Shown one piece after another: positions 33,936 to 37,811 of a stretch of 42,431 nt of DNA. The stretch is from Ectocarpus siliculosus (lineage: Eukaryota; Sar; Phaeophyceae; Ectocarpales; Ectocarpaceae), in assembly GCA_000310025.1 (NCBI GenBank), contig FN648564.1, positions 355,046-397,476 on the forward strand, given 5' to 3'. The translations under genes and the position numbers were made by a program. The first letter of the stretch is position 1. Every line of letters begins with the position of its first letter. Below the pieces are notes generated by a model. The model had not been told where the DNA came from and searched no databases. It saw nothing but the letters and a program-made list of their open reading frames with translations.

Positions 33936-34256
33936 TCACACTTGACCCAATTTTCCTAAGGCTGCCCCCGTCTTGTTCACGCGTTTGCGGCGACCGACCG
34001 CTGTCGCAGGCAGTTGCTTCGATCTCGTCTTCACACCTGTAACAGGGACAAACTCATTTTGGGCAGTGTCAGGCCTTCGCGCAATGCGTGGTGCATGGAG
34101 CTTTCTTACACGACCGCCCAGCTTTGCACGAACCTTTTTTCGCACAGCTTCCAGATCTTTCCGAGTACTGACTGTGCGTGGGTGGATTTCCCCAAGCTTC
34201 TTCGTATGGATTACTAGGGCCTTCTCCAATAGTGCAATCGCCTCCATGTACTCCTC
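33936..34256 (-). CDS. TPR gene terminal exon
   Basis: Encodes a last TPR-like helix pair (EEYMEAIALLEKALVIHTKK, then LGEIHPRTVSTRKDLEAVR) and a basic, Arg/Lys-rich tail ending at TGA 33938-33936. The canonical GGCAAGTAC exon start is replaced by TTGGAGGAGTAC, so the acceptor position (about 34257) is approximate. Confidence 0.55.
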   Translation of the reverse strand, partial: EEYMEAIALLEKALVIHTKKLGEIHPRTVSTRKDLEAVRKKVRAKLGGRVRKLHAPRIARRPDTAQNEFVPVTGVKTRSKQLPATAVGRRKRVNKTGAALGKLGQV

Positions 34257-34503
34257 CAATGGACGTTCAGATGCAGGATAGAAAACTTGACCAGTGCGAA
34301 CACCGCATAACGGACGACGTGGGGGTAAAAAACCGTCTCGTTCACCAGGGAGCAGGTGATCTAGCAGGCAGTAAAAAAAACAGCGACACGAGGAAAACGC
34401 CACCAATGGGGCCTCACAATTGTGTCGTCGAACTCGCTGGCAGATGTTCTTTCGGCGTAAATTGCGGTATACACACAACTGTGCCACGCGGTGCATGCCC
34501 CAG

Positions 34504-34608
34504 GGCAAGTACGTTGAGGCCGAACAACTGTACTTGCGGTCACAGGCCATACGAGAGGGGGTGCTAGGTCTGGAGCATCCTGATGTGGCGGCAAGGCTCA
34601 ACAACCGG
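34504..34608 (+). CDS. Inverted TPR exon (plus strand)
   Basis: 105 nt encode one clean [19 protein letters not shown], then [19 protein letters not shown], preceded by a good acceptor (GCCCCAG). It lies opposite to all other TPR exons of the array and ends one base from the end of the minus-strand TPR at 34610-34714. The joint is a near-palindrome (CTCAACAACCGGGCCCTTTG followed by TTGAG). Reading on, the frame stops within three codons. It has no partner exons on the plus strand nearby. Confidence 0.65.
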
Positions 34609-34609
34609 G

Positions 34610-34714
34610 CCCTTTGTTGAGCAATGTGGCCACATCAGGACGCTCCGGACCCAACACTTTCTCTCGTATGGCTTGTGACCGCTCATAGAGCGGCTCGGCC
34701 TCAGTGTATTTGCC
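34610..34714 (-). pseudogene. TPR exon, acceptor damaged, tail-to-tail with inverted copy
   Basis: The frame is open: [16 protein letters not shown], then [17 protein letters not shown]. The usual CAG before GGCAAATAC has become CAA, leaving only a frame-shifting AG one base on. The last codons (AACAAAGGG) differ from the consensus AACAACCGG. Confidence 0.6.
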
Positions 34715-34815
34715 TTGGAATGCAGGAGTACACAGCGTAGCAAGAGTTGTTTTCATACAAGTCCAATCAAAGTGGGATCTACGCTGCGGGTACACGGTTC
34801 CTCAACCACGCTCAC

Positions 34816-34920
34816 CCGGTTTTCGAGTGCCTGGGCCACATCCAGGTGCCCCAGGTCTAGAACCGTCGCTTGTATGGCTGGTGACCGCTCACAGAGTGGT
34901 AGGGTCTCAGCACACTTGCC
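34816..34920 (-). pseudogene. TPR exon with lost acceptor
   Basis: 35 open codons (GKCAETLPLCERSPAI, then LDLGHLDVAQALENR) and a good donor (CCGG|GTGAGC), but the acceptor AG has become AT (ATCATGGCAAG). Several consensus residues are changed. Confidence 0.6.
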
Positions 34921-35048
34921 ATGATACGTGATAAACAACGTGGCAGCCAGTCGGACTTCAGCCAATTGACATCTGGAATTGCCGAGGAATACTTGCTTGA
35001 AGCATCTAGAAGCAACTATGTAGCATATTTTCATATTTTGGCTCTCAC

Positions 35049-35174
35049 CTGCCTATCGAACAATCTCGCCAAGTTGTTGAGGTTTGTAGCGACGTCAGGG
35101 GGGTCACGACCGTAAACTTTCTCGTCGATAGCCAGCGAGCGCCTGTACAGAGGCCCAGCCTCGTCATACTTGCC
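35049..35174 (-). CDS. Intact TPR exon
   Basis: 126 nt = 42 codons, phase 0 at both ends, acceptor TTCCAG and donor CAG|GTGAGA. GKYDEAGPLYRRSLAI, then DEKVYGRDPPDVATNLNNLA, RLFDRQ. This is the full-length exon type of the family. Confidence 0.7.
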
Positions 35175-35231
35175 CTGGAATGTGTCGGGAAAGGAATGAG
35201 AGAAGGTCATTTGGTGACGGCGCATGCGCTA

Positions 35232-35339
35232 CAGAACAAATGCCTGGGCAACATCCGGGCGCTCAAGGCCCAGGCCCTACCCTCGTATGACTTATACCCG
35301 TGCATAACGTGACCATGTCTCAGCGTACATAGCAAGATA
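35232..35339 (-). pseudogene. Degenerate TPR with stop codons
   Basis: Recognisable ends (MYAETWSRYARV; LGLERPDVAQA) but two in-frame stops and no clear splice sites. Confidence 0.5.
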
Positions 35340-35450
35340 CGTTGTGGCAGAAGGTTGGATTTTAGTCAATATCAGGTCTAAAGAACTGCGGGGGTATACA
35401 ATACAATTGTATTCCAGAAAAATCTTGCAGAAGCATCGGTTGGCTATCGC

Positions 35451-35591
35451 CTGCCTCTCCAACAACCTCGCCCGGTTGTTGAGCACCATGTACAACATCC
35501 ACAGGGCGCCAAGAGAGTGCTATTATTAGAAAGTTCTGACGGCTCTCACCTGCACTCTCAACAACGCCGCCCAGGTTTTCAGCATTGCAAC
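35451..35591 (-). pseudogene. Two TPR exon remnants
   Basis: Only the 3' parts survive: VAMLKTWAALLRVQ|GTGAGA (35591-35550) and MVLNNRARLLERQ|GCGATA (35507-35451, with a frame change just before). The first halves of both repeats are missing. Confidence 0.5.
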
Positions 35592-35646: not shown

Positions 35647-35771
35647 CTGCTTTCTCAACAACACCGCCTGGTTGTTGAGCCACGTTGCAAGATCCGGGTG
35701 GTCGGGGCCAAGCTTCTTCTCCCCAACCTCAATAGCTCGAAGGTACAGAGGGTCGGCCTCGGTATCTTCCC
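35647..35771 (-). pseudogene. TPR exon with 1-nt deletion
   Basis: Acceptor CTCTAG and donor CAG|GTGATA are good, and the body reads EADPLYLRAIEVGEKKLGPD, HPDLATWLNNQAVLLRKQ. The exon is 125 nt instead of 126: a base is missing after GGGAAG, so the start is out of frame with the body. Confidence 0.65.
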
Positions 35772-35843
35772 CTAGAGCATGAGGCAAAAGCATGGCAGAC
35801 GTGAGGTCAAAGCAAGCGGAGCTAAATGCGGAGGAACATATAC

Positions 35844-36920: not shown

Positions 36921-37352
36921 TCATTTGTTAGATCGGAAATACTCCCGGAATTGACTCCGTCCGGACGAGACGAGGGGCCAGGCCAACTTCACAGCGCATC
37001 GACGTTGCCACCGCCAACAACCGTAGGTGCACCACCACGCTTTGCACTTAGTGAGGGTGGCATCCACGGAAGCTGCACTGTGAATACGAGGGTCTCCAAC
37101 ACGCGACACCACGTTCGCTCGCACCCGAACCACAGGCCCAAATCCGTAGGGGCGATCCGCAGGGTCTTGCTTCCAGCGTTGCTCCATCAGAGGCACGACA
37201 TCGGGCGAAGCAGACGCCCCTTGAGGATTTTCAGGGCGTTTTCCTTTGTCCGCGACCGCCCTGATCACCTGTGTTTGTTTGAATCCCTTGAACAGCTCCA
37301 TCAGGGTAGCCACCTCGAAGCAGACGACACCGAAACTGGCCGGGCACATCAA
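36921..37352 (-). pseudogene. C-terminal fragment of a protein kinase
   Basis: The minus strand encodes the end of a kinase C-lobe: SFGVVCFEVATLMELFKG (subdomain IX), VIRAVADKGKRPENPQ (X), then VPLMEQRWKQDPADRP (XI, with the conserved Arg before Pro). This matches tyrosine-kinase-like (TKL) kinases. About 70 further residues follow to a TAA/TGA-bounded end. Just upstream, TTTGATGTG (the usual DV before SFG) is in another frame, one extra G away, and a stop lies before it. ATP-binding and catalytic subdomains are absent in the window. It is therefore a truncated, frameshifted remnant. Confidence 0.7.
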
Positions 37353-37586
37353 ACGTGGGCAAAAGGGTGGTGCATCACGAGCTTTTGCGGCGAAGTGAAC
37401 GATTTAGTATTCACAGGTCATTTCTAAGTCTCAAGATAGCCAGGCCTTGGTTGTTGCCATATACAATGACTTATAAACCAAAAATGAAATCGGACACACC
37501 TCGGGTGGATCCGCTCCTCCCCAGACGGACAATAGCCCGGGCCGACTAGAAGTGGGTTCCGCGTGATGAGCGAAGACGTTCTTGAG
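37353..37586. other. Between kinase fragment and MITE
   Basis: No feature recognised. Confidence 0.4.
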
Positions 37587-37811
37587 ATACCGTAAGGTTG
37601 CGAGTCAGCGCACAGGGGTGCGAACGATTTCCAAAGTGTAATTTCTCCACAACCAGGAGGTTACCACTGTCGAAAAGGGAGGTTTTCGAAATATCTCATG
37701 GAGAGCTTTCCTGAGAAGTATCAGTTGGCGCTCGCACTCTCCTGGTTGCGGAGAAATTACGCTTTGAAAATCGATCGCACCCCTGTGCGCCGACTCGCAA
37801 CCTTACGGTAT
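37587..37811. mobile_element. MITE with 73-bp terminal inverted repeats
   Basis: The left arm (37587-37659) and right arm (37739-37811) are inverted copies over 73 bp with only a few differences; both outer ends read ATACCGTAAGGTTGCGAGTC, and both inner ends CAACCAGGAG. The 79-bp centre has no coding capacity. The outer bases allow a TA target duplication (TA|CCGTAAGG ... CCTTACGG|TA), which would fit Tc1/mariner-type elements; with a palindromic end this is suggestive only. Confidence 0.85.

Follow-up and report, generated by a model that had tools for sequence, protein, structure and literature searches.

A tail-to-tail pair of TPR exons in Ectocarpus siliculosus is joined inside the exons, at a near-palindromic exon tail

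Introduction

Programmed DNA inversion is known from shufflons and other recombinase-driven switches. In brown algae, arrays of TPR exons (in NB-TPR genes) and of LRR exons (in ROCO genes) are reportedly rearranged by exon shuffling. The sections of PMC11378527 drawn on here describe shuffled LRR exons of 72 bp and cite Zambounis 2012 for the idea of a somatic process in both of these gene groups; neither 'inversion' nor 'palindrom' occurs in the main text of PMC11378527. A different route to inverted DNA is outlined in Abraham and Hazkani-Covo 2021 (PMC8604942), which in the part used here treats template switching between short inverted repeats, with inversion of the spacer, in yeast genes. 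A human case in which a LINE-1 insertion inverted an exon also appears, in outline, among the literature matches listed; the titles and opening abstract lines of those matches, a set that leaves subscription papers mostly outside, hold no description of inverted TPR exons.

Here we analyse a stretch of 42,431 nucleotides (the window; C464:355046-397476, in a genome of 189 Mb and 492 contigs) in which two TPR exons meet tail to tail. We find that their joint is the genuine scar of a rearrangement, that three loci of the genome carry scars of this kind, and that it is not precise to the exon end.

Results

The tail-to-tail pair is real: the head of a plus-strand TPR exon (34504-34609) meets the head of a minus-strand TPR exon (34714-34610), and 34504-34608 on the plus strand and 34610-34714 on the minus strand each translate to a TPR-like 35-mer. 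The two form an inverted repeat whose arms (34500-34604 and 34614-34718) are 78% complementary, with 81/105 identical bases by alignment. This likeness is far above chance (tblastn E 5e-12), and it continues for some 37-44 nt into the introns ahead of the two exons (73% between 34467-34604 and 34758-34614). The place where the heads meet, which we call joint 1 (34597-34621, no strand), is a near-palindrome by its sequence. Among the exon-model matches in the window, 10 of 11 are on the minus strand, the exception being the plus exon at the joint. The translations, the complementary arms and the model matches thus bear out what the original prediction had described: a tail-to-tail pair, a near-palindromic joint and an array whose other repeats are on the minus strand.

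The inverted exon head on the plus strand covers roughly codons 1-35 of 42 and keeps its acceptor CCAG, with the in-frame tail and the donor missing; its model match spans 34496-34622 (profile 13-140, 103.3 bits). Its partner, the exon head of the main array at 34610-34714 (108.1 bits), likewise covers about codons 1-35 of 42 and is missing its in-frame tail and donor, and it has CCAA at the expected acceptor CCAG, the usual AG reading AA. Next to the plus exon, 34440-34503 is a piece of the preceding intron carried along in inverted orientation, as judged by its similarity to locus L018: 34440-34609 matches L018 5219-5386 at 74% over 170 nt, and 34475-34609 matches L018 4461-4593 at 85% over 135 nt. 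Between this inverted unit and the last intron lies a stretch (34347-34439, no strand) with short weak matches only (best E 6e-4), and the second breakpoint falls either here or at 34346.

Where an intact exon ends was read from 108 copies in the window and loci L001-L024 that match all 42 codons, contain no stop and score above 45 bits. The canonical exon is 126 nt, or 42 codons, long, with AG before it in 107/108 copies, GT after it in 105/108 and both in 104/108; in these selected full-length copies there is one repeat per exon, of constant length and in one phase. Compared with the consensus repeat, the reading frame at the joint holds as far as codon 36 in the plus copy and codon 33 in the minus copy, and both exons lack the in-frame tail LLxxQ and a GTGAG-type donor. 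Because the reading frame of both gives out near codon 35 of the 42 that make up a 126-nt exon, the window joint lies inside the exons, within the near-palindrome of the exon tail (CTCAACAACC...GGTTGTTG), and not at splice sites. The DNA model runs on past the in-frame ends, to 34622 for the plus match and to 34597 for the minus match, since the palindrome that the two arms share resembles the tail from either side. The equal lengths of 105 nt, which had been taken for the exon length, arise because both exons are cut at the same motif. An inversion exact to the exon ends is therefore rejected, and the ends that were thought to have been respected on both sides are in fact breaks at the tail palindrome. 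Breakpoints at random positions within exons had been named as evidence against the original prediction; the breakpoints are indeed within exons, but they are not random, falling in one motif at three loci.

These three loci emerged from a search of the genome for other tail-to-tail joints, as the original prediction had suggested, which found the same type of joint on contigs C6 and C10. The exact joint-1 pattern gave 17 hits. Judging by their centre (GGGC(G)CCC), we read 14 of these as ordinary exons seen from the other strand and the remaining three, at C6:3474198, at C10:2587097 and in the window, as real joints, a count that is a lower bound because an exact pattern misses mutated joints. 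The pattern for the mirrored second joint, in which tail plus donor faces tail plus donor, matches only at C6:3474423 and C10:2587324 (2 places, 4 hits), about 235 nt from the respective first joint, centre to centre. The inverted piece at each of these loci is one repeat unit, running from one exon-tail palindrome to the next. Flipping the piece back by script restores full exons with donors and raises the score from 108.4 to 128.9 bits on C6 and from 113.9 to 128.8 on C10, each the best of 81 breakpoint pairs for its locus. Beyond the inverted unit the array on C6 continues in its original direction; on C10 the matches beyond are weak (18-22 bits).

Both joints, and the restoration of full exons by the flip-back, are what would be predicted if recombination between neighbouring palindromic tails had flipped one unit in place by two breaks, with no copying. 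This explanation also gains from L015, where a direct B-type unit is followed by the same intron as follows joint 2 on C6 (93%). Set against it, a direct unit like the inverted one still stands upstream on C6 (L016 5676-5934; 93% over 261 nt, with 105/108 in the exon part), and the flanks of the inverted unit are adjacent to one another in L013, where 74 nt match at 93.2% and 80 nt at 91.3% with 4 nt in common, and in L012 (93.2% and 80.5%). In nine further cases of flank adjacency, making 11 in total, one or both of the matches are shorter. Moreover, of five direct B-type units compared, L020 has no model match at that place and the other four come after full exons, so that none comes after a mini-exon. 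In favour of the flip, on the other hand, the right flank on C6 is 96% like the introns after full exons, against 91% for the copy at the empty site. Because the direct unit remains upstream and the flanks are adjacent in paralogues, an inverted duplication and insertion fits C6 better than an inversion does, and we regard the two-break flip as unlikely, albeit with an appreciable share of the probability. Comparison of these sequences favours a history in which a copied inverted unit would have been placed into the palindrome of a tail-only mini-exon. On C10, the inverted unit is 94% alike over 255 nt to L014 and 92% over 269 nt to L013, and the evidence for an empty site is weak, the left flank matching at 71-76%. 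The description of the locus as a single-exon inversion in a TPR array consequently holds in part: one exon is inverted, and on C6 and C10 the rearrangement goes by whole units, but inversion as such is doubtful, since the C6 unit looks inserted.

Palindromic joints such as these are typical of fold-back chimeras. Fold-back artefacts give nearly identical arms, against 77-78% likeness between the arms in the window. The inverted unit on C6 shares 93% of its bases with the direct one; it has a boundary on either side, and past it the array resumes its original direction. An error of assembly or library construction is thus a very improbable source of these joints.

The motif at which the exons break lies in the tail of the repeat exon. 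The consensus tail CTCAACAACCGGGCGGGGTTGTTG is nearly its own reverse complement; codons 32-40 typically read CTC AAC AAC CGG GCG GGG TTG TTG and can fold back. As DNA hairpins, two consensus tails reach -7.9 and -9.3 kcal/mol (z -4.4 and -5.4). Joint 1 on C6 folds modestly (z -2.09), and the window joint is a weak hairpin (z -1.32) that 23/200 shuffles match. Leucine codons 38 and 39 are TTG in 173/200 cases, and the other leucines in 58/409. With codons redrawn from the rest of the exon, such synonymous resampling fills a mean of 3.89 of the 10 stem pairs (500 draws, maximum 4.16), against 6.74/10 in the exons themselves. Strong palindrome centres (9/10) number 24 in the 108 exons and their flanks, 22 of them in the tail, and the strong 9-of-10 tail palindrome is carried by 22/108 exons only.

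Selection for tail pairing as such was considered and dropped for want of convincing covariation between stem positions (Fisher p 0.31, 1.0 and 0.045 for three pairs). The low synonymous variation spans the whole tail and not the paired positions alone, for which reason some of it could be owed to splicing or gene conversion. Tail-only matches to the model begin at profile positions 107-113 in 27/32 cases, of which many share one origin and three are the second joints of C6 and C10. Five tandem tail-only mini-exons, of about 11 codons plus donor and spaced 89-94 nt apart, lie in L013 2742-3158 (C2:8312741-8313157), and L008 has a long near-perfect palindrome beside a TPR exon at about 2014-2118.

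In the window, no second palindromic joint is recognisable. The plus segment was flipped back in 375 combinations, none of which exceeded 105.3 bits, whereas the best of 400 random joins used as a control reached 110.8 bits (mean 101.5), and a second joint of this kind was accordingly dropped. Homology to L008, the neighbouring paralogue, breaks off at 34346 and is found again from 35412 onwards, and the intervening block of about 1 kb (34347-35411) is either extra in the window or lost in L008. The closest relatives of the plus arm are L018 (85% over 135 nt) and L002 (86% over 110 nt), and those of the minus arm are L019 and L006 (83-88%). A recent local fold-back duplication of the minus exon is rejected on these grounds, the arms sharing 81/105 bases and the plus arm being closer to other loci. 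Because the best relatives of the arms are 83-88% alike, the event in the window appears to be old or to have drawn on distant copies.

An alternative history for the window is that a fragment with an inverted exon was inserted in an unrelated event, the tail joint having come about by chance or through microhomology during end-joining. The absence of a second joint would fit such an event, as would the difference from L008 over the 1-kb block, which points to a local history more complex than one event; the recurrence of the same type of joint at two other loci speaks against it, and we find this account quite unlikely. We hold instead, with moderate confidence, that the window joint is a decayed relative, or fossil, of the events on C6 and C10: its decayed look comes from the lack of a recognisable second joint together with a minus exon that has no usual acceptor. 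We infer that its origin was like theirs and that its second joint has since been lost or altered, and the exon pair is probably non-functional.

Arrays of mixed orientation also occur outside the three loci. In 45 sequences scanned with the exon model (the window and 44 loci), 524 matches remained after removal of echoes, 470 of them long; L007 has no model matches. Six of the 45 sequences are of mixed orientation, namely the window, L016 (C6), L020 (C10), L001 (C16), L002 (C14) and L003 (C24), and none (0/20) of the later-added L025-L044, picked by exon matches, is among them. The first 24 loci are a biased sample: L001-L006 and L013-L024 were picked by matches to the joint region, and L007-L012 by last-exon matches or nearness to the window, some of them having joint-region matches as well. 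Candidates scored were 40/79 for the joint region and 150/616 and 40/78 for exon matches, and further arrays are possible.

The array on C16 (L001 3378-6066; C16:824877-827565) alternates, its 19 TPR exon matches following the order --+-+-+--+-+-+-+-++. Heads face each other across a short spacer, about 28 nt from acceptor to acceptor, and tails face each other too. L002 4172-4430 (C14) and L003 3337-4371 (C24) hold head-to-head pairs with the same spacing of about 28 nt between acceptors; the exact head-to-head pattern is found at one place on C14 and five on C16 (9 hits), the copies on C24 being variant. At the C16 joints whose letters were read, CTCAA is the last of the plus exon, and what it runs into is the start of the minus exon's intron in mirror orientation. 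By their sequence, the tail-to-tail joints of this type make up what appears to be a second class, with its breaks placed elsewhere than in the type seen in the window. Inverted degenerate exons flank L001 (147 nt at 87%) and L003 (within 291 nt at 89%), and arrays of the C16 and C24 type may represent a dispersed fold-back element. A run of N interrupts L003. The letters next to the C16 array had suggested an SMC-like gene there, which was dropped after neither Pfam nor PDB gave a match.

The minus-strand array in the window extends from the joint towards higher coordinates. It includes a degenerate TPR exon without the usual acceptor, CAT preceding it (34798-34920, 58.9 bits); a full 126-nt exon with a CAG acceptor and a GTGAG donor (35049-35174, 123.0 bits); two tail-only mini-exons that both start at profile position 108 (35440-35489 and 35540-35588); and a TPR exon with TA in place of AG at the usual acceptor position (35647-35772, 106.4 bits). 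On the other side of the joint lies the probable last exon of the minus-strand gene (33936-34290, upper end approximate), which encodes a basic C-terminus and a partial TPR at 34179-34253 (TPR_12, E 0.0019; 18.8 bits, where the curated cut-off is 30.1). This last exon has a paralogue at C464:407061, some 18 kb further along the contig.

Upstream of the array in the direction of the gene, a minus-strand open frame at 36921-37403 encodes the C-terminal part of a protein kinase (PF07714, 28 bits, cut-off 23.1). This fragment presumably belongs to the same gene as the array, which would make a kinase-TPR gene possible; the rest of the kinase domain was not found in the window frames scanned against Pfam. 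An NB-ARC domain upstream of the array was considered and dropped, as none occurs in the 20/56 listed open frames compared with Pfam (16/27 on the minus strand; frames of at least 75 aa), and the gene may pass the end of the window. At 37587-37811 the window also contains an inverted repeat with 73-nt arms that are 93% complementary and 79 nt apart.

Discussion

Our analysis of joints, flanks and paralogues sheds light on how one exon of a TPR array could come to lie backwards. We think it rather likely that an error of replication or repair at the quasi-palindrome of the exon tail left the joint as its scar, with template switching between palindromic exon tails as the favoured form of that error. 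Because the motif reads nearly alike on either strand, each pair of tails in an array of direct tandem units would at the same time form an inverted repeat. A nascent strand stalled at one tail could then pair with the opposite strand at another tail, a step at which the polymerase would presumably change template; one unit, consisting of an exon head and the preceding intron, would be copied backwards until a switch back at the previous tail. The outcome would be an inverted insertion of one unit, bounded by two palindromic joints.

Template switching of this kind explains the length of the unit, both joints, the persistence of the source unit on C6 and the loss of the exon tails. Weighing against it are the weak hairpin of the window joint and the modest one on C6, the small share of exons with a strong tail palindrome, the lack of convincing covariation, the weak empty-site evidence on C10, the right flank on C6 and the different placement of the C16-type joints. 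The three loci share a first joint in a quasi-palindrome, the window hairpin being weak (z -1.32); a second bounding joint is present on C6 and C10 and missing in the window; and retention of the template together with an empty site in paralogues is supported on C6 and weakly so on C10. We have not filed the window joint as a member of the template-switch class because its second joint is missing.

A broader reading is that the near-palindrome of the tail is kept at the DNA level and, through its likeness on the two strands, serves as a built-in exchange signal, at which single exon units are duplicated, deleted, reduced to mini-exons or inserted in reverse, so driving the turnover of receptor-like arrays. 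We put this forward as a speculation that is probably wrong as it stands. If template switching at tails is right, it offers a concrete and testable account of how tandem arrays of repeat exons turn over, in which the breakpoint is a mirror motif inside the exon and not the splice site; it would explain inverted exons of this kind as dead ends, and it would supply a simple alternative to programmed or somatic exon shuffling. The part most worth following is the mirror motif itself, in a repeat exon, as the place where units break and rejoin.

The recurrence of the rearrangement and its unit-wise nature might also be expected of a programmed or somatic system that inverts exons to diversify TPR receptors, and a somatic process has been suggested for the TPR and LRR arrays of brown algae (Zambounis 2012, as cited in the sections of PMC11378527 used here). 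What argues against such a system is that the break removes the in-frame tail and the GTGAG-type donor, and neither exon at the window joint looks usable; that the exact pattern finds only three such joints; and that the window copy is diverged, its minus exon being without the usual acceptor. Somatically recombined ROCO loci and site-specific recombinases are, moreover, unreported according to the same sections of PMC11378527. A programmed or somatic origin therefore seems far-fetched to us, and the diversity-generating process to which the pair had originally been linked finds no support in the tests run.

The joint can be compared with several known systems. As in shufflons, a coding segment bounded by inverted repeats lies in reverse orientation; unlike in shufflons, the exons in the window are broken at the joint. 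With the shuffled arrays of brown algae, in so far as the sections of PMC11378527 used here describe them, the locus shares a tandem arrangement, one exon for one repeat and rearrangement by units. It differs from those arrays in that the window joint lies inside exons and in that the frames scanned show a kinase fragment and no NB-ARC. The likeness to quasi-palindrome switching as set out in the part of PMC8604942 drawn on here is that short imperfect inverted repeats guide a switch of strand, homogenise the arms and invert the spacer, in protein-coding genes as well. The spacer in that account, however, lies between the arms of one inverted repeat, whereas here units of about 235 nt, each an exon plus an intron, are inverted between the palindromes of two exons in a direct tandem array, on C6 apparently as an added copy.
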